64,000 nt of DNA from Bradyrhizobium liaoningense (GTDB lineage: Bacteria > Pseudomonadota > Alphaproteobacteria > Rhizobiales > Xanthobacteraceae): the NCBI RefSeq assembly GCF_018130785.1, contig NZ_JAFCJT010000001.1:868001-932000 (forward strand), given 5' to 3'. Below the pieces are notes generated by a model. It did not search any database. It worked only from the letters and a program-made list of their open reading frames with translations, and had not been told where the DNA came from. This document shows positions 34,139 to 41,885 of the stretch, in pieces (position 1 is the stretch's first letter; every line of letters starts with the position of its first letter). Position numbers and translations under genes: made by a program.

Positions 34139-35113
34139 TCAGCTTTTTGTGCTGGCCGTCTTGTCCAGCGCCGCGCGCAAGCCGTTGGCGAGCTTGATCG
34201 CGTCGTCGTTCGCCCAGAAGTGCATGAAGAAGAGGCGCGGCTGTTCATCCAGCATATGGCTATGGAGAGCCGTCACGCCGATGCCATGCGATCGCAACGC
34301 CTTGATCACGGGGTTCACCTCGCCGCTGGTCATTACGAAATCGCCGGTAATGACTGCCTTGCCGCCACCGGTCGGTTGAAAGTTGATGGCGGTTGCGACG
34401 CCCAGCGGACCGACGGGGCTCAACTGAATCCCTTCTTCGGTAATAGGATCGCGGCGGGGAACGTTGAACTGATAGACGCCGCCGTTGGCCTGCCCCTTGA
34501 CGCCAATGATCTGGTCGAGCTGCGCGGTGTCGAGATCGACAGCAGGCGGAGGAGCCGTCGGGGCCGCCGCCGACAGCGGCGTCTTGCTTTCGGCAAGCGC
34601 ATCTCGAATGGCGGTCGCGATCTTGACCGGATCGCCGTGCCCCGCCACGTGCATGTAGAACGTCGCCGGGCTCGCGCCGAGCAGATGATTGTGAACAGCA
34701 GTGATCTCCAACTCGCTCGCGATCATCTTCAGCATGACCGGGTTGATCTCGGATTCGAGCAGCACCAGATCGCCCATCGCCATGACCCCGCCATGCGCGG
34801 GCTTGAACGCGACCCAGCCGCCGAGCGCCAGCGCCGGCTTGATGGTCACGCCGTCGAGAGTCACCGTGAGGTCGGTGCGCGGAAAGCCGTAGCGATGTAC
34901 ATCGCCGGTGACGGCCGGCTTTCGGCCCAGCGCTTCATCGACCTTCTGCCAGTCGACATCCTGCGCGTGAGCGGCCGCGATGAAACAGGCGACGATGCCT
35001 ATCAGCGCCGAGCAGGCGCTCCACGCCGTACCGAGGAGACGAGACGATTTGTCGGATGAGATCGAAAAAAAAGACATGTTGCGCCCATGCGTCAGGACGC
35101 GATTCTTGGGCAT
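34139..35113 (-). CDS. Secreted DUF1259 (LppY/LpqO-like) protein with two repeats
   Basis: A 324-residue exported protein; the signal peptide ends AAAHA-QDVD near residue 50. Two homologous DUF1259 halves follow, each with a motif of the form GDxxxxxxEINPV / GDFVMTSGEVNPV, then HNHLLGASPATFYMH or HSHMLDEQPRLFFMH. The paired histidines HxH suggest metal binding (inference). The ATG at 35113 has GAGG four bases upstream; an ATG at 35077 gives a more ordinary signal peptide. It is a stand-alone gene. Confidence 0.88.
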   Translation of the reverse strand: MPKNRVLTHGRNMSFFSISSDKSSRLLGTAWSACSALIGIVACFIAAAHAQDVDWQKVDEALGRKPAVTGDVHRYGFPRTDLTVTLDGVTIKPALALGGWVAFKPAHGGVMAMGDLVLLESEINPVMLKMIASELEITAVHNHLLGASPATFYMHVAGHGDPVKIATAIRDALAESKTPLSAAAPTAPPPAVDLDTAQLDQIIGVKGQANGGVYQFNVPRRDPITEEGIQLSPVGPLGVATAINFQPTGGGKAVITGDFVMTSGEVNPVIKALRSHGIGVTALHSHMLDEQPRLFFMHFWANDDAIKLANGLRAALDKTASTKS

Positions 35114-35320: not shown

Positions 35321-36535
35321 TCATGAGGAACGCTTCCCGAATTGAGCCCCCCGCGCCCACAGCAATGCGAGCGGACCTAGCGCGATGCCGGCCGCAAGAA
35401 CAACGAACGCCAGCAGCCAGCCGCTTGCGCTTTGCGGACCGCCGGCTGCGTCGAGCGCGGCGCCCGTGCCCCAGGCTCCGAGCGCTGACAGGCCGAAGCC
35501 GACCGTGGAGTGCAGAGCCAGAGTTGCACCACGATGCTCGGAGACGGCCGCAGCCGACATGCCGGCAGTCAACGCGCCAGAATCGGCGGGCACGGTCAGG
35601 CCATAGACGAGCAGCAGCAGCGCGAGCACCCATGCCGGCGCCGTAGCATTCAGCCCGACGACGATTGCAACACAAGCCGACGCGATCATCACGATAGTGA
35701 TCGCGCGATGCCGGCCGAATTTCAGCGCGGCCTCGTTGCCGAGGATGCTCGCGGGCATCGAGATCACCGCGAAACAGAAGCTCAGCACGACGGGGCTCAG
35801 CCATGACGGCGCGCCTTGATGGGCGACGACGAAGGTCCAGAACCCGACGAGCCAGGTGCGGATGCCGTAGAGCTCGAAGCAGTGGGCGCCGTAACCGAGG
35901 ATGTATCCGAGCGCCTCGCGGTTCGCGAAGACGGGCGCGAAGTTGAGAAGACGCTCCGCCTTCGGCGCGGGATGCTGCCCCTGCATCAGGAGGCACGCGG
36001 TGACCATGGCGACGGGGCCGAAGCCGGTGACGAGGAATGCGCTCCGCCATCCCCAACGGTCGGCGATAAGTTGCGCGACCAGGAACGAGAGGCCAACACC
36101 GACCGAGAAGCTCGACGTGTACAGCGTGACGGCCCGCGAGGTGTCGCCGGCGGGAAGACGGTCCGTCAGCGCCTTCGGGCCCGGCATATAGGCGCCGGCA
36201 AATCCAAGTCCTGCAAGGGACCAGATCGCGGTCGCCGACCAGAATCCTTGCGCGAAGATTCCGAACGCCGCGGTCGCGAGCCCGCTGACGATCGAGCCCC
36301 AGAGCAGCACGAGCCGCGCGTCGACCCGGTCGGTCAATGTCGTCAGCACGGGCACCGCGAGCATGTAGCCGAATGCATAACCGCTTGCCATCAAGCCGCC
36401 TTCGGCCGCCGACAGTCCCCACGCGGGCATCAGGTGCTGCGCCAGATTTGCGGACAGCGTCACGTGCGGCAACAGGTTGCCGACCTGCCCTATGCACATC
36501 ACCGCAATCAGAGACCGACCGCTTAAGTTACGAAT
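35321..36535 (-). CDS. MFS transporter of the arsenic-type cluster
   Basis: A 12-helix major facilitator of about 404 residues, distantly like the next gene. The first membrane helix begins SLIAVMCIGQVGNLLP and MFS motif A is TDRVDARLVL. The start is uncertain. The family-like N-terminus is preceded by AGGAG six bases before an ATT codon at 36535, overlapping the end of the upstream MFS gene; other options are ATG 36499, GTG 36502 or the long frame from 36640. It is the last gene of the flavoprotein-MFS-MFS unit. Confidence 0.82.
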   Translation of the reverse strand: MRNLSGRSLIAVMCIGQVGNLLPHVTLSANLAQHLMPAWGLSAAEGGLMASGYAFGYMLAVPVLTTLTDRVDARLVLLWGSIVSGLATAAFGIFAQGFWSATAIWSLAGLGFAGAYMPGPKALTDRLPAGDTSRAVTLYTSSFSVGVGLSFLVAQLIADRWGWRSAFLVTGFGPVAMVTACLLMQGQHPAPKAERLLNFAPVFANREALGYILGYGAHCFELYGIRTWLVGFWTFVVAHQGAPSWLSPVVLSFCFAVISMPASILGNEAALKFGRHRAITIVMIASACVAIVVGLNATAPAWVLALLLLVYGLTVPADSGALTAGMSAAAVSEHRGATLALHSTVGFGLSALGAWGTGAALDAAGGPQSASGWLLAFVVLAAGIALGPLALLWARGAQFGKRSS

Positions 36536-37748
36536 TTTGCTCTCCTGGCTGGAGGGGCGTTGATGTTGCCTGCTCCGTGCGAAGCAGCAGCAGCGCGAAG
36601 AAGGCCGAGACCGAGATGAGCGCGCTGATCCACAGCGCACTGCTGCCGATGTGCTCCACCATCAGCCCCAGTGCGAGCGGCGCGGCGGCCCCCGTCAGTC
36701 GCGACGGGAGCGAGATCATGCCGACGCGTCTGCCGAATCCCGCCGACCCGAACAGCGCCAAAGGGAGCGTCCCTCGGGCAATGGTGATGATGCCGTTGCC
36801 TGCTCCGTACAGCACCGTGAAGGTCGACGCGAGCAAGGGTCCGCCCGCGACGAGCGCAACGACACCGATCGGATTCATGAGCATGGCCAGCCTCGCCGAG
36901 AGCAGCGGATGAAACCGGGCGAGCCATCCTGCCTCCAGAAGGCGCGCGCCGACCTGCGCTGGTCCAACCAACGCGCCCGCGAGCAAGGCTTGCGCCGGTG
37001 TCGCGCCAAACGCAACCAGCATGGTCGGCAGAATGGCGGAGATTCCCGAGCTGACGAAGCTTGCTGCTACGAACATGTAAGCCAGCAGCACCATCGCGAA
37101 GGTCTCGCTCTGGCGTCCGGATTGCTGGCTCGCGCCCCCGCCCGGCCGAGACTCCTGGTCCAAGGGGGCGGCGCGCGGCAGCGAAAGATTGAGCGGCAGC
37201 GCAAGGCCGATATGGATCACCGCCCACACCTGACAGACGACGCGCCAGCCGTACTCCGAGGTGAGCCAGGTCGTGAGGGGCCAGCCGAGGGTGCTGGCGA
37301 ATCCGGCGATCAGGGTGATGCCGGTGATGGTTCGTCGCGCATGGGTACCGTAGATGCGAGCAAGCGTCGCGAAGGCCGCTTCATAGAGGCCCATGCCCAT
37401 GCCAATCCCGAGCAGCGCCCAGGCCGCAATCAGCACCGCCGCGCCATGGGCGACGGACAGCAGGAGCAAGCCCGCCACAAAAACGAGGTTCGAGATCGCA
37501 AGCAGGCTGCGCCCTCCGAACGTATCGATGGCATGGCCCACGCGCGGGCCGAGCAGACCGGAGATGACAAGCGCTCCAGACAGCGCGCCGAACACGTATG
37601 TCGGCGCAAGACCGAGATCGCGCGCAATCGGCGCAGCCAGGATGGCAGGGAGATAGTAGCTCGACGCCCACGCAACGGTCTGCGCGGAACCGAGCGCGAC
37701 GACGACAGCGAGCGGACCCGCAGCCTGGCCCGCAGGGACTTGCGTCAT
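36528..37748 (-). CDS. MFS transporter of the arsenic-type cluster
   Basis: A 406-residue, 12-helix transporter starting MTQVPAGQAAGPLAVV. The first helix (SAQTVAWASSYYLPAILAAPIARDLG) and the TFGGRSLLAI loop resemble YnfM/MCT-like MFS proteins. The ATG at 37748 overlaps the flavoprotein stop as ATGA, so the two are coupled; an ATG at 37760 is also in frame. Tandem MFS genes beside a flavoprotein and ArsR suggest export of an arsenic or antimony species or an oxidation product. The substrate is not known. Confidence 0.85.
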   Translation of the reverse strand: MTQVPAGQAAGPLAVVVALGSAQTVAWASSYYLPAILAAPIARDLGLAPTYVFGALSGALVISGLLGPRVGHAIDTFGGRSLLAISNLVFVAGLLLLSVAHGAAVLIAAWALLGIGMGMGLYEAAFATLARIYGTHARRTITGITLIAGFASTLGWPLTTWLTSEYGWRVVCQVWAVIHIGLALPLNLSLPRAAPLDQESRPGGGASQQSGRQSETFAMVLLAYMFVAASFVSSGISAILPTMLVAFGATPAQALLAGALVGPAQVGARLLEAGWLARFHPLLSARLAMLMNPIGVVALVAGGPLLASTFTVLYGAGNGIITIARGTLPLALFGSAGFGRRVGMISLPSRLTGAAAPLALGLMVEHIGSSALWISALISVSAFFALLLLRTEQATSTPLQPGEQNS

Positions 37749-39115
37749 GAGCAGCCGCACCCCGCAGCGCCAGCCTTCTTTGCCGATTCATCGGCAGCGC
37801 AGCAGGCTGACGGCTCCTCCTTCGCCGGCCCGCCGCAACATCCCGCTGCGGCTCCGGCGACCTCGATGCCACCACGCGTGCAGACGCCGGTCTCCGGCAG
37901 CACAAGCTCCACCCTCGCCGCAGCTTCCTTGTCGCCAGCGAGATCGGCCGCGATCGAGCGGACCTGTTCGTATCCGGTCATCATCAGGAAGGTCGGCGCA
38001 CGGCCGTACGACTTCATGCCCGCCATGTAGAAGCCCGGCTCATCATGCGCGAGCTCGCGCGCACCGTGCGGACGCACCGTCCCACAGCTATGCTCGTTGG
38101 GATCGATGAGAGGTGCGAGGGCGACTGGTGCCTCGATGGCGGGATCGAGCCGCAGACGCAGTTCGGACAGGAACGAGAAGTCGGGACGGAAACCCGTCGA
38201 CACGATCAATTCGTCCGCCACCACGCTTCGCCCGGCGCAACAGGGGCCGGCCGCGATCTTGAGGCGGCCTTCGGATTCCGAGAGATGCGTGACGCCGAAT
38301 TCGGCTTCAACCCTGATCCTCCCGGAGGCAACAAGCGCGGCGAAGGCACTCCCAAGCTCGCCGCGTGCAGCAAGCTTGTCATTCCGGCCGCCGCCGAAGG
38401 CCTTCGCGGGATCAGCGCCACGCAACAGCCAGACGGGTTGCGTACCCGGCACCTCATCGGCGAGATGCACGAGGTCGATCAGCGTGCCTACCGCGGAATG
38501 ACCGGCGCCCAGAACAGCAACGGACTTACCTGCATATCTGGAACGGCCAGCACCTCGGGCATCCGGCATGCCGTAGGCAATACGGTCGCTGCACTGGGGC
38601 TCGCCGATCGCCGGCAAGCCGTTGTGGCCGGCCGGATTGGGGGAGAACCATGTGCCTGATGTATCGATCACGGCGTCTGTACGCAGAGCTTCGGGACCCT
38701 TACCGTTCTGATACCGGATCTCGAACAGCGCCTGGTCGCGCCCCTTGGTCTTCGCCTTGTCGAAGCCGACGCGGCTGATGGCCGAGACGCGGCTGGCGGT
38801 CCGGATCACCTCGCGCAGCGGCGTGCGCGTCGCGAGCGGCATCAGGTATCGCTCAAGCAGTTCGCCGCCGGTCGGATAAGATTGCGGGTCCGGCGCATTC
38901 CATCCTGTCGGCGCCAGCATCCGCGCGGCGGCCTTGTCGACATTGTACTCACACGGCGAGAACAACTGGACATGCTGCCACTGGCGGACGGCGTGTCCGA
39001 CTTCGGGTCCGGCCTCGAGCACAATGGGGGACATGCCGCGCTCGAGCACGTGCGCGGCCGCGGCCAGGCCGACCGGCCCTGCCCCGATAATGGCAACTGT
39101 CCTTCCGTCGCTCAT
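37745..39115 (-). CDS. FAD/NAD(P)-dependent flavoprotein with Cys-rich tail, ArsO-like
   Basis: A 456-residue two-dinucleotide-binding oxidoreductase. The FAD site is IIGAGPVGLAAA at residues 9-20, and the NAD(P) site is VLGAGHSAVGT near 200. The protein resembles flavin monooxygenase-like proteins found in ars clusters. The last 40 residues are unusual: CTRGG, then CCGGP, CC and CGCS, giving eight cysteines that could bind soft metals (inference). It lies 48 bases after arsR and has its own ArsR-type palindrome at 39130-39149. Confidence 0.85.
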   Translation of the reverse strand: MSDGRTVAIIGAGPVGLAAAAHVLERGMSPIVLEAGPEVGHAVRQWQHVQLFSPCEYNVDKAAARMLAPTGWNAPDPQSYPTGGELLERYLMPLATRTPLREVIRTASRVSAISRVGFDKAKTKGRDQALFEIRYQNGKGPEALRTDAVIDTSGTWFSPNPAGHNGLPAIGEPQCSDRIAYGMPDARGAGRSRYAGKSVAVLGAGHSAVGTLIDLVHLADEVPGTQPVWLLRGADPAKAFGGGRNDKLAARGELGSAFAALVASGRIRVEAEFGVTHLSESEGRLKIAAGPCCAGRSVVADELIVSTGFRPDFSFLSELRLRLDPAIEAPVALAPLIDPNEHSCGTVRPHGARELAHDEPGFYMAGMKSYGRAPTFLMMTGYEQVRSIAADLAGDKEAAARVELVLPETGVCTRGGIEVAGAAAGCCGGPAKEEPSACCAADESAKKAGAAGCGCS

Positions 39116-39129
39116 TTCGCTACTCTCAT

Positions 39130-39149
39130 ATTTCTAGAATTATCGAATA
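39130..39149. promoter_or_regulatory. ArsR-type operator copy 1
   Basis: ATTTCTAGAATTATCGAATA lies 15-34 bases upstream of the flavoprotein ATG. It matches the other two copies (39521, 39821) at most positions, with the right half less perfect. It likely controls an internal promoter for the flavoprotein-MFS-MFS unit. Confidence 0.6.
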
Positions 39150-39163
39150 AATCGGCAAAAAAA

Positions 39164-39481
39164 TCAGGCCGCCGTCTTGGCATCCTTGCATTCGGCTTCG
39201 TCCACGCAGCATTCCGACACCAGGAAATCGACCAAGCCCTGCATCGAGTCGTAATTGGCATGGCAGACAAGCGTCGTGGATTCGCGGACCTGACTCACGA
39301 GCCCGACCGCGACCAGAGACTTGATGTGATGCGAAAGCGTCGATGCCGGTATCTTCAGCTTGTCCTGCAAGCGGCCGACGGGCGTGCCCGATCGTCCAGC
39401 CCGGACCAGCGCCCGGTAGATCTGAAGCCGTGTCCGGTTACCCAGGGCTTCCAAGCGTGCTGCGGCGTCGTCGATCTTCAT
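39164..39481 (-). CDS. arsR: ArsR/SmtB-family metalloregulator
   Basis: A 105-residue winged-helix repressor: LEALGNRTRLQIYRAL, then DNA-recognition helix PASTLSHHIKSLVAVGLV. The C-terminus has C91, C92 and C98 (SECCVDEAEC). This CC-x5-C spacing equals that of the arsenite site reported for Acidithiobacillus ferrooxidans ArsR, so trivalent arsenic or antimony sensing is likely. The promoter palindrome lies at 39521-39540. It leads the flavoprotein/MFS arm. Confidence 0.93.
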   Translation of the reverse strand: MKIDDAAARLEALGNRTRLQIYRALVRAGRSGTPVGRLQDKLKIPASTLSHHIKSLVAVGLVSQVRESTTLVCHANYDSMQGLVDFLVSECCVDEAECKDAKTAA

Positions 39482-39520
39482 GACCGCACCATATGTCGAT
39501 CGCCTCCCAACGTCAACGGT

Positions 39521-39540
39521 ATTTCTAGAATATTGGAAAT
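39521..39540. promoter_or_regulatory. ArsR-type operator copy 2
   Basis: ATTTCTAGAATATTGGAAAT is an imperfect palindrome with 5-bp outer arms (ATTTC/GAAAT). It lies 40-59 bases upstream of the arsR start at 39481, a position suited to autoregulation. Confidence 0.7.
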
Positions 39541-39568
39541 ATGGATCGACCCCGCGCGGTGGCTCGCC

Positions 39569-39781
39569 TCAACAGCACTTTCCGTTCTGCTGGATCGGCG
39601 GACAAGGAACAGACCCGTAGGAGCAATAGACGCAGCAATCGCCACTCTTGGGCTTGAGCCGGGTCCCGCACCCCCTGCAATCGTAGAAGAACTGACAGGC
39701 GTCAATCGGCATGGTTTCGGCTGACGCGTGATGACAGACCGGACACGTGATTATCGATTGCGTTTGCATGGCCGGCTTCAT
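39569..39781 (-). CDS. GDCCVxC-motif small cysteine protein
   Basis: A 66-70-residue protein with ITCPVCHHASAETMP, FYDCRGCGTRLKPK, then GDCCVYCSYGSVPCPP and a final CC. The GDCCVxC signature defines a small family of (seleno)proteins that sit beside mercury and arsenic resistance genes, with no proven function. The ATG at 39781 puts the start exactly as far from its palindrome as arsR is from its own; an ATG at 39769 is also possible. It is transcribed away from the second arsR. Confidence 0.82.
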   Translation of the reverse strand: MKPAMQTQSIITCPVCHHASAETMPIDACQFFYDCRGCGTRLKPKSGDCCVYCSYGSVPCPPIQQNGKCC

Positions 39782-39820
39782 GCCCTACGATGCGCCTCTT
39801 CACGATGCCAGCCAAACGAT

Positions 39821-39840
39821 ATTTCCAGAATGTCCGAAAT
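39821..39840. promoter_or_regulatory. ArsR-type operator copy 3
   Basis: ATTTCCAGAATGTCCGAAAT lies 40-59 bases upstream of the GDCCVxC gene start at 39781 and 64-83 bases upstream of the divergent arsR2. It shares ATTTCYAGAAT and GAAAT with copy 2, so one ArsR probably reads both. Confidence 0.7.
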
Positions 39841-39885
39841 AGCGAGCGGAAAGTTCGGGATTTCGGATTGACGCAATTTCAATAA

Positions 39886-39909
39886 TTCCATATATCTGGA
39901 TATATGGAA
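39886..39909. promoter_or_regulatory. 24-bp palindrome covering the arsR2 start codon
   Basis: Ten-base arms TTCCATATAT and ATATATGGAA are exact inverse copies around the centre CTGG. The ATG of arsR2 (39904) lies inside the right arm. The sequence differs from the ATTTCYAGAAT operators, so it is likely the site of the second ArsR itself. Confidence 0.7.
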
Positions 39910-40266
39910 ACTGAAGAAGCCGTTCTCGCGCTCGCCGCGCTCTCTCAATCGACCCGACTGGAGGCCTTCCGGACGCTGGTCAAGCACGAGCCCGACGGGC
40001 TCGCCGCTGGCGACCTCGCACGCCAGTTGGAAGTCCCGCCGAACACGCTTTCGGCCCATCTGTCGATCTTGACGCGTGCGCGGCTCGTCACCTCCGAGCG
40101 GCGCAGCCGTTCGATCGTCTACCGCGCCAACCTCGCCGAATTCCGCGACATTGCGGTTTTCCTGGTTCGGGATTGCTGCGGCGGGAGGCCAGAGGTTTGC
40201 GAGCCGGTCGTCGACAGCCTTCAAGCCTGCTGCTCGCCAAAGCGAAAGGAGCGAAGCCGTGCCTGA
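39904..40266 (+). CDS. arsR: Second ArsR-family metalloregulator
   Basis: A 120-residue winged-helix repressor (SQSTRLEAFRTLV; PPNTLSAHLSILTRARLV). The C-terminus carries C91, C92 and C99 (DCCGGRPEVC) plus a C109-C110 pair, consistent with binding trivalent arsenic. No ribosome binding site precedes the ATG, which lies in a palindrome, so the mRNA may be leaderless or start just upstream. Its end overlaps the arsC GTG. It heads the arsR-arsC-aqpS-arsC operon. Confidence 0.92.
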   Translation: METEEAVLALAALSQSTRLEAFRTLVKHEPDGLAAGDLARQLEVPPNTLSAHLSILTRARLVTSERRSRSIVYRANLAEFRDIAVFLVRDCCGGRPEVCEPVVDSLQACCSPKRKERSRA

Positions 40267-40786
40267 CCAGATGTCCAACGTGCTGTTCCTATGCACCGGC
40301 AATTCGGCGCGCTCGATCCTCGCCGAGTCGATCCTTCGCAAGGACGGAGCCGGCCGTTTTCAATCCTTCTCCGCCGGCAGCACCCCGAAAGGGGCGGTCC
40401 ACCCGCTGGCACTGCGCACGCTGGAAAGCTTGGACTATCCCGCCGACGGGATGCGTTCGAAGAGCTGGCTGGAGTTCGCCGCTCCCGATGCGCCGGTGAT
40501 GGATTTCGTCTTCACGGTTTGCGACAACGCCGCCGGTGAGGCCTGCCCGATCTGGCCGGGACAACCGATGACCGCGCACTGGGGTATCGAAGACCCCGCC
40601 GCTGCCGAAGGCACCGATCTGGAGAAACAGGCGCAATTCATCACCGCGTTCCCCTACCTCAAGAATCGGATCGACACCTTTGTGAGCCTTCCGCTCCGGA
40701 ATATCGACAAACTGTCCCTTGGTACCAGACTGCGCGAGATCGGCCGCTCCGCGGGTACAACACATTCAACGCCGAAGGCCGGCTGA
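40259..40786 (+). CDS. arsC: Arsenate reductase, thioredoxin-coupled (low-MW phosphatase type)
   Basis: A 175-residue enzyme reducing arsenate to arsenite. The P-loop is LFLCTGNSARSILAE and the region FTVCDNAAGEACPIWPGQP...AHWGIEDP is typical of the arsenate reductase branch of LMW phosphatases. The GTG at 40259, with AAAGGAG seven bases before it, is preferred; an ATG at 40271 is in frame. It overlaps arsR2 and abuts aqpS by one base. Confidence 0.93.
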   Translation: MPDQMSNVLFLCTGNSARSILAESILRKDGAGRFQSFSAGSTPKGAVHPLALRTLESLDYPADGMRSKSWLEFAAPDAPVMDFVFTVCDNAAGEACPIWPGQPMTAHWGIEDPAAAEGTDLEKQAQFITAFPYLKNRIDTFVSLPLRNIDKLSLGTRLREIGRSAGTTHSTPKAG

Positions 40787-41487
40787 TGGACAGTTTCGAT
40801 CTTCCGCGACGCCTCGCTGCCGAAGCGCTCGGCACGGGGATTCTCGTCGCCACGGTGGTCGGCTCCGGCATCATGGCCGAGACGCTGACCAAGGATATCG
40901 CCCTTGCGCTGCTGTGCAATACCTTGCCGACCGGGGCCATTCTGGTCGTCCTGATCACCGTGCTCGGCCCAATCTCCGGCGCGCATTTCAATCCCGCGGT
41001 CACGCTCGTCTTCACCGGCAAGCGCGAGCTGCCGGTGAATGAGGGTGCACTCTACATTCTCGCGCAGATCGCCGGTGGCGCCATCGGGACGATGGTGGCA
41101 CACCTGATGTTCGCGCACCCCTTGATCGACCTGTCGATGAAGGTCCGGACCGGCGAAGCGCAATGGTTCGCGGAAGCGGTGGCCGCTTTCGGACTGGTCG
41201 CCACCATCCTCGCCGGCATCCGCTTCCAGCGTGCGGCGGTCCCCTGGCTCGTCGGGCTCTACATCACGGCCGCATATTGGTTCACGGCATCGACATCGTT
41301 TGCGAATCCGGCAGTCGCCATTGCGCGCTCGCTGACGAACACTTTTTCCGGCATTCGCATGGCTGATCTTCCCGGCTTCATTCTCGCTGAGCTCTGTGGC
41401 GCGATCGCCGGCATGCTGTTGATGAACTGGTTGCTCGGGCGCGACGCTGTGCGCGGCCCGGTTGCCGTTGCGGAGACCCGATCATGA
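40786..41487 (+). CDS. aqpS: Aquaglyceroporin-family arsenite channel AqpS-like
   Basis: A 233-residue, six-helix MIP channel. The first NPA loop is intact (SGAHFNPAVTL) and the second is SFANPAVAIARSL. In Sinorhizobium meliloti the ars operon uses AqpS as an arsenite exit channel in place of an ArsB pump. Here it lies between two arsenate reductases with start/stop overlaps, which supports the same job: letting arsenite leave after reduction. Confidence 0.92.
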   Translation: MDSFDLPRRLAAEALGTGILVATVVGSGIMAETLTKDIALALLCNTLPTGAILVVLITVLGPISGAHFNPAVTLVFTGKRELPVNEGALYILAQIAGGAIGTMVAHLMFAHPLIDLSMKVRTGEAQWFAEAVAAFGLVATILAGIRFQRAAVPWLVGLYITAAYWFTASTSFANPAVAIARSLTNTFSGIRMADLPGFILAELCGAIAGMLLMNWLLGRDAVRGPVAVAETRS

Positions 41488-41885
41488 GCGTCACGATCTA
41501 TCACAATCCGGATTGCGGAACCTCGCGCAACACACTCGCCATGATCCGGCAGAGCGGCGCGGAGCCCGCTGTCATCGAATATCTCAAGACCCCGCCATCG
41601 CGCGAAACGCTCAAGCAGCTGATCGTATCGATGGGCATTCCGGTCCGCGCATTGCTGCGAGAGAAGGGCACGCCTTACAAGGAGCTCGGCCTCGCCGACC
41701 CCAAATGGACGGACGACGAGCTGCTCGACTTCATGATGGCGCATCCCATTCTCATCAACCGTCCGATCGTGGTAACGGCGAAAGGCACGCGCTTGTGCCG
41801 CCCCTCCGAAGCCGTGGTCGACCTCCTGAACAATCCCGTCGGGCGCTTCGTGAAGGAGGACGGCGAGGTGGTGGAAGCCAAATAG
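41484..41885 (+). CDS. arsC: Arsenate reductase, glutaredoxin-coupled
   Basis: A 133-residue thioredoxin-fold enzyme, unrelated to the other ArsC. It shows YHNPDCGTSRNTL with catalytic C11, and the oxyanion arginines in INRPIVVT and RLCRPSE. It overlaps aqpS by four bases and ends the operon. The presence of two reductase classes in one operon means both thioredoxin and glutathione pools can drive arsenate reduction. Confidence 0.95.
   Translation: MSVTIYHNPDCGTSRNTLAMIRQSGAEPAVIEYLKTPPSRETLKQLIVSMGIPVRALLREKGTPYKELGLADPKWTDDELLDFMMAHPILINRPIVVTAKGTRLCRPSEAVVDLLNNPVGRFVKEDGEVVEAK

Follow-up and report, generated by a model that had tools for sequence, protein, structure and literature searches.

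How does a Bradyrhizobium strain that has neither Acr3 nor ArsB at curated cut-off deal with arsenic, and what does a flavoprotein with a cysteine-rich tail do among its arsenic genes? Both questions are raised by nine genes between positions 35321 and 41885 of a 64,000-nucleotide stretch of Bradyrhizobium liaoningense DNA (contig NZ_JAFCJT010000001.1, positions 868,001 to 932,000; this whole stretch is called the window). A sequence-only reading had described them as an arsenic-type island with one arm on each strand and had listed the kinds of gene it holds. All nine genes lie where that reading placed them, and family searches agree on the kind of each:

35321..36640, minus strand: MFS2, a second transporter of the major facilitator superfamily (MFS); PF07690 at 93.6 bits; present in 52 of 80 related loci
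36528..37748, minus strand: MFS1, a predicted ArsK-family exporter; NF033733 at 232 bits, cut-off 400
37745..39115, minus strand: NAD(P)H/flavin adenine dinucleotide (FAD) flavoprotein with a seven-cysteine tail; PF13738 at 51.1 bits; aligned with relatives (90 sequences); modelled fold nearest YpdA
39164..39481, minus strand: arsR1, an ArsR/SmtB repressor with CCx5C; NF033788 at 57.2 bits, over 55; CCx5C in 73 of 80 homologues
39569..39781, minus strand: GDCCVxC mini-protein; NF041374 at 104.5 bits, over 40; sole copy found in the genome
39904..40266, plus strand: arsR2, an ArsR/SmtB repressor with CCx6C; NF033788 at 61.1 bits, over 55; CCx6C in 63 of 63 homologues
40259..40786, plus strand: arsenate reductase of the low-molecular-weight phosphatase (LMWP) type; PF01451 at 51.5 bits, over 23.2; TIGR02691 at 62.6 bits, under 174.3
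40786..41487, plus strand: AqpS-like channel of the major intrinsic protein (MIP) family; PF00230 at 84.6 bits, over 25; two NPA boxes
41484..41885, plus strand: glutaredoxin-type arsenate reductase ArsC; TIGR00014 at 148.5 bits, over the equivalog cut-off of 106.05

The best explanation for these genes is a two-arm, ArsR-controlled arsenic resistance island, and we think it likely on balance that this holds in full, including oxidation of a trivalent species by the flavoprotein and export by an MFS protein. Gene content, family scores, operator repeats, conserved gene order and the association with arsenic genes carry this explanation. The island is of a widespread, ordinary type among soil bacteria, and its minus arm is a known kind of system that probably detoxifies trivalent compounds of arsenic or antimony.

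The flavoprotein and its predicted exporter recur in arsenic gene clusters

A search for relatives of the flavoprotein in the genome_contigs collection confirmed 88 places, of which the best 80 were kept as related loci; the closest are from Bradyrhizobium. The gene also occurs in 27 genomes, the window's own included, out of a class-wide sample of 289, and in 123 plasmid records (tblastn, E 1e-60 or better) that span Streptomyces, Rhodococcus, Arthrobacter, rhizobia and Paenibacillus. A looser plasmid search gave 165 records, distant ArsO proteins among them. The sequence-only reading had proposed a search of genomes for conserved gene order and had set the minus arm outside the known arsenic sets. 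The order arsR-flavoprotein-MFS proved to be widespread across these collections, and a system of this kind, ArsV, is described in citing papers; the arm is not unusual.

Known arsenic genes were scored (Acr3, ArsH, either ArsC, AqpS, AioA, ArsJ, ArsA, ArsD and ArsN1, at 35% identity or more over half the query) in 27 class-wide stretches from 25 genomes and in 20 control stretches taken from 19 of these genomes. Three of 30 places were excluded to give the 27 stretches: the one in the window itself and two fragments belonging to a single genome. At least one arsenic gene was found in 15 of the 27 (AioA alone in one, ArsN1 alone in another), compared with none of the 20 controls. In genome_contigs loci longer than 12 kb, arsenic genes were present in 66 of 74. 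An MFS gene adjoins the flavoprotein gene in 22 of the 27 class-wide stretches, as counted by eye.

Annotated plasmids give these neighbourhoods names. Thirteen such records were picked by choice, not at random; in 11 of them the stretch shown has arsenic genes other than arsR. The flavoprotein gene stands beside Acr3 and ArsH in Afipia, Rhizobium rhizogenes and Bosea, beside Acr3 in Shinella, beside ArsJ in Neotabrizicola, beside ArsN1 with arsDA in Pseudomonas nitroreducens, beside mer and ars genes in Mammaliicoccus, and beside an ArsO-Acr3 cluster on the Streptomyces FR-008 plasmid. The exceptions are Hydrogenophaga, with arsR alone next to the pair, and a Roseomonas plasmid with a PadR regulator and with chromate and nickel exporters nearby. 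In two of the 13 records (Mammaliicoccus and P. nitroreducens), no MFS gene directly follows the flavoprotein gene. The adjoining MFS protein belongs to the ArsK family in all eight annotated records tested (152-513 bits, one, from Ensifer, over the cut-off); two further partners are annotated arsK, and one MFS among the 13 records was left outside this scoring.

On three plasmids the pair is found beside the arsenite oxidase genes aioAB. Two of these are Ensifer adhaerens plasmids that also have the pst phosphate uptake set alongside, and the third, from Nitrobacter, adds ArsH. The flavoprotein-MFS pair may therefore travel together with islands for arsenite oxidation.

A probable ArsV-type flavoprotein

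Gene pairing and enzyme class make an ArsV-type flavin monooxygenase the most likely identity of the flavoprotein. We aligned the window copy with 89 of 93 extracted relatives, four partial or broken ones having been dropped. Rossmann glycine motifs for both FAD and NAD(P)H, searched as loose patterns, are present in all 90 sequences, and the gene is paired with an exporter in ars clusters (an MFS gene in 22, arsenic genes in 15 of the 27 stretches). A review (PMC10080717) assigns the oxidation of methylarsenite to ArsV and the extrusion of methylarsenicals to ArsW, ArsP or ArsK, and lists arsV under Paracoccus sp. SY. A second paper (PMC9144182) classes ArsW as an efflux transporter and ArsV as an organoarsenical resistance protein, and a third also names ArsV (PMC11719878). 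The window shares with the ArsV/ArsW system a flavin enzyme and an exporter in ars clusters, and the substrate class fits the island; the cysteine tail, the GDCCVxC gene and the second MFS gene go unmentioned in those passages of the citing papers that describe the system. The original accounts, Chen 2021 and Zhang 2022, reportedly concern antimonite oxidation and a wide presence in soil bacteria, going by their titles as cited.

ArsO is likewise a flavoprotein of ars clusters, with weak sequence similarity to the window protein. We rejected the window protein as an ArsO equivalog, as it scores 51.5 bits against the NF040505 cut-off of 425. The Streptomyces FR-008 plasmid encodes both: a protein annotated as ArsO and, some 1.7 kb away, a distinct homologue of the window flavoprotein.

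Oxidase or reductase

Several points weigh against an ArsV-type oxidase at the core of an arsenic island. The name is inferred from gene pairing and enzyme class, with ArsV known here through citing papers. The pairing in turn takes ArsW to be an MFS protein, and two of the 13 annotated records lack the adjoining MFS gene. In a passage of PMC11719878, arsO is the name of the gene in an arsROC-mfs-arsH operon and arsV is named apart from it. The protein itself raises further doubts. The fingerprint of class B flavin monooxygenases, FxGxxxHxxx[YFK], occurs in just 1 of the 90 aligned sequences, and for this reason we do not file the family under the classical flavin monooxygenases. The closest solved fold to the structure model is YpdA, a disulfide reductase (Z 24.7, root-mean-square deviation 3.7, 312 aligned residues), followed by thioredoxin reductases and flavin monooxygenases, both at Z of about 20; at the sequence level the top solved chains belong to these kinds too, though weakly matched (best E 9.1e-07). 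Residue 55 of the window copy (codon TGT, window 38951-38953) reads as cysteine, in place of the tryptophan of the other 89. It is either a real change that may impair the window copy or an assembly error. Finally, in 12 of the 27 class-wide stretches no arsenic gene was detected within about 8 kb; three of these 12 lie on contigs shorter than 10 kb (4.3, 3.7 and 9.9 kb). The sequence-only reading had taken the same gene order in clusters free of arsenic genes as grounds for giving up a metalloid role, and the 12 stretches go part of the way towards this, set against the 15 that have arsenic genes.

The fold suggests a different chemistry. The flavoprotein could be a reductase for thiol disulfides or metalloids that works much as YpdA or MerA does, in which NAD(P)H would reduce a thiol-bound species or the enzyme's own cysteine tail while the MFS protein exports trivalent arsenic. 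YpdA ranks above the monooxygenases, the fingerprint is absent from 89 of the 90 sequences, and the cysteines fit: Cys344 and Cys412 are invariant in all 90, and the tail takes the paired form CC...CC...CxC in 80. (The sequence-only reading had counted eight tail cysteines; there are seven within the last 45 residues.) ArsK, too, is said to give resistance to trivalent species, if the cited title of its paper is a guide. However, none of the 90 sequences has a CxxC pair among its first 400 residues. The structure model is middling (mean pLDDT 67.5, with residues 308-349 and 407-435 below 50), too weak for the position of Cys344 relative to the flavin to be read from it, and it places thioredoxin reductases and monooxygenases alike. 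The flavin enzyme of such clusters is, moreover, described as an oxidase in the review passage (PMC10080717). A reductase is rather unlikely, though it is the strongest competitor.

Much less probable is a broader role for the pair, against antimony or other soft electrophiles, with arsenic genes as frequent company only: the 12 stretches without arsenic genes and the Roseomonas and Hydrogenophaga records agree with it, whereas the contrast with the controls (15 of 27 against 0 of 20), the ArsR-type operator repeats and the ArsK-family partner in eight of eight tested do not.

Repeated putative ArsR-type operators

The ArsR-controlled arsenic island draws further support from the regulatory stretch between and beside the two repressor genes, which contains these sites:

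39130..39149, plus strand: putative ArsR1-type operator before the flavoprotein gene; exact match; at two mismatches or fewer in 57 of 81 relatives, 8 exact
39488..39516, minus strand: sigma-70-like promoter of arsR1 (weak evidence); TTGACG-17-TATGGT, 9 of 12 positions; 0.4 expected in shuffles
39521..39540, plus strand: putative ArsR1-type operator at the arsR1 promoter; exact match; at two mismatches or fewer in 80 of 81 related loci, 53 exact
39821..39840, plus strand: putative ArsR1-type operator between the GDCCVxC gene and arsR2; exact match; not in this form upstream of 10 other GDCCVxC genes

The operator motif, ATTTCYAGAATNNNNGAAWW, has exactly three exact copies in the window, all between 39130 and 39840. 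Allowing two mismatches adds one match, the opposite strand of one of the same sites (0.01 expected). The motif was read off these sites before the search, which makes the window count partly circular and the relatives the fairer test. All counts across loci cover the 120 bases upstream of each gene at no more than two mismatches: besides those given above for arsR1 and the flavoprotein gene, the motif precedes arsR2 in 61 of 64 cases, the GDCCVxC gene in 6 of 11 and MFS1 in 0 of 35. The arsR2 count is not independent, because a single short intergenic stretch lies upstream of both arsR genes wherever no GDCCVxC gene intervenes. In five of the six GDCCVxC cases the site has two mismatches and looks like the one where arsR2 begins; only the window therefore gives a clear case for control of the GDCCVxC gene by an ArsR1-type site. 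Four bases separate the arsR1 operator from the weak sigma-70-like site.

The GDCCVxC gene had been thought to be separately promoted. An exact operator copy does lie upstream of it, but a simple promoter scan of 39000-40000 gave no sigma-70-like site apart from the one at arsR1. By eye, we also noticed a near-perfect palindrome at 39886-39909 that overlaps the arsR2 start; it is probably the operator of ArsR2. Across the window the composition profile is unremarkable except for a lower GC content, 0.577, at 39000-39999, which is this same regulatory stretch. A tRNA scan returned no match.

The plus arm probably makes arsenite and offers it an exit

In the plus arm, family scores confirm the two unrelated arsenate reductases that had been proposed, one LMWP-type and one glutaredoxin-type. 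The first was rejected as a pI258-type ArsC, since 62.6 bits falls below the TIGR02691 equivalog cut-off. Between them lies the MIP channel gene. Its product has two NPA boxes and its ars operon encodes neither ArsB nor Acr3, as for AqpS-type channels. According to a passage of PMC6205960, AqpS of Sinorhizobium meliloti is the exit for arsenite made by ArsC. That description and the gene content both fit the AqpS-plus-ArsC route suggested for the island by the sequence-only reading. With the S. meliloti-type ars operon the window shares a channel, an arsenate reductase and the lack of ArsB and Acr3; it differs in its two arsenate reductases, in having no ArsH at cut-off genome-wide and in its second arm.

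The absence of ArsB, Acr3 and ArsH extends beyond the island: none reaches its curated cut-off anywhere in the 8.3-Mb assembly. Elsewhere in the genome there are weaker matches to ArsH (27.9 of 292 bits) and ArsB (128.5 of 415 bits), and a match to the ArsP_1 permease comes in two pieces, one of them over the cut-off. Relatives do hold Acr3 in the channel slot, and ArsH in 3 of 80 loci. Across the 80 loci this slot is filled by AqpS in 34, by Acr3 in 31, by neither in 15 (four of them on loci shorter than 12 kb) and by both in none. Such exclusion is not new, because a survey agrees with it, reporting in the part that bears on this that all 18 ars-operon MIPs are encoded without ArsB or ACR3 (PMC4435449).

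Two MFS proteins and the GDCCVxC mini-protein

Both MFS transporters of the minus arm are present, and the first is not anonymous. Its best family is ArsK (NF033733), at 232.2 bits over nearly the full model, positions 1-385 of 388. At this score, below the equivalog cut-off of 400, MFS1 is a relative of ArsK and was rejected as an equivalog; in an Ensifer relative of the pair, the protein in this place does exceed the ArsK cut-off. MFS1 is the top of three ArsK-like matches in the genome (E 1e-20) and is 31-35% identical to two rhizobial ArsK proteins. If ATG 37748 is its true start, its gene overlaps the flavoprotein stop by four bases.

The best NCBIfam match of MFS2 is an aromatic acid/H+ symporter, at 65.9 bits, under the cut-off of 418.55. 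Its open frame is listed with a GTG start at 36640, but translation probably begins nearer 36530; we searched from 36505. In two genomes from other families of the class, an MFS2-type second transporter (42% and 39% identity) adjoins the first, which takes the twin-MFS layout beyond Bradyrhizobium. Just downstream of MFS2, at window 34139-35113 on the minus strand, is a gene for a DUF1259 protein (PF07485) with two domain copies, the sole one found in the genome. A homologue occurs in the 8-kb flanks of the flavoprotein gene, on either side, in 16 of the 80 genome_contigs loci, in none of the 27 class-wide stretches and in none of the 20 controls.

The GDCCVxC gene is found in 10 of the 80 related loci, and its family has 350 plasmid records. 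In six regions that we opened, it sits in mer gene sets (Aeromonas, Hymenobacter), in an ars operon (Sulfuricella), and, in S. meliloti, Nitrobacter and Thiothrix, in other settings with genes for thioredoxin-like proteins or metal transport. The Agrobacterium copy overlaps an annotated merF. Our literature search turned up no paper naming the protein. The simplest guess is that it is a thiol metallochaperone or scavenger.

A proposed model for the island

We propose that the two arsenate reductases of the plus arm would make arsenite, which would leave down its gradient through the AqpS-like channel, a slot that Acr3 fills in sister strains. ArsR1, released by a trivalent metalloid, would turn on the minus arm. 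Its NAD(P)H/FAD flavoprotein would then oxidise a trivalent species to a less toxic pentavalent form, and the ArsK-like MFS protein would export the product or unoxidised substrate. The likeliest substrates are methylarsenite, some other trivalent organoarsenical, or antimonite. The substrate, the direction of electron flow, the export of the product and the binding of the repressors to their operators are all conjectured from these data, as is any holding or delivery of a metalloid by the cysteine tail.

The sequence-only reading had proposed that the flavoprotein acts on a trivalent metalloid and that MFS proteins export the product. This is broadly plausible and close to the published accounts of ArsV, with substrate and export the parts that we conjecture. 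It had also allowed a wider range of substrates. Trivalent metalloid species other than arsenite are indeed probable; for selenium or tellurium we saw no hint in the neighbourhoods, and no search was aimed at either.

The cysteine pair of MerA hands over mercury. By a similar logic, we suggest tentatively that the flavoprotein carries its own metallochaperone: the tail would capture As(III) or Sb(III) and hand it over near Cys344 and Cys412 for oxidation, the GDCCVxC protein would feed the tail, and a thiol relay would run from cytosol to enzyme to MFS pump.

The model gives a specific and testable role in arsenic resistance to a widespread gene whose product is called no more than 'FAD-dependent oxidoreductase', 'NAD(P)-binding domain-containing protein' or similar in the annotated records that we opened. 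For a strain without Acr3 or ArsB at cut-off, it suggests the AqpS-like channel and ArsK-like pumps as the main exits for arsenite. The conserved cysteine tail, in turn, offers a simple way to ask whether one enzyme passes trivalent arsenic internally.

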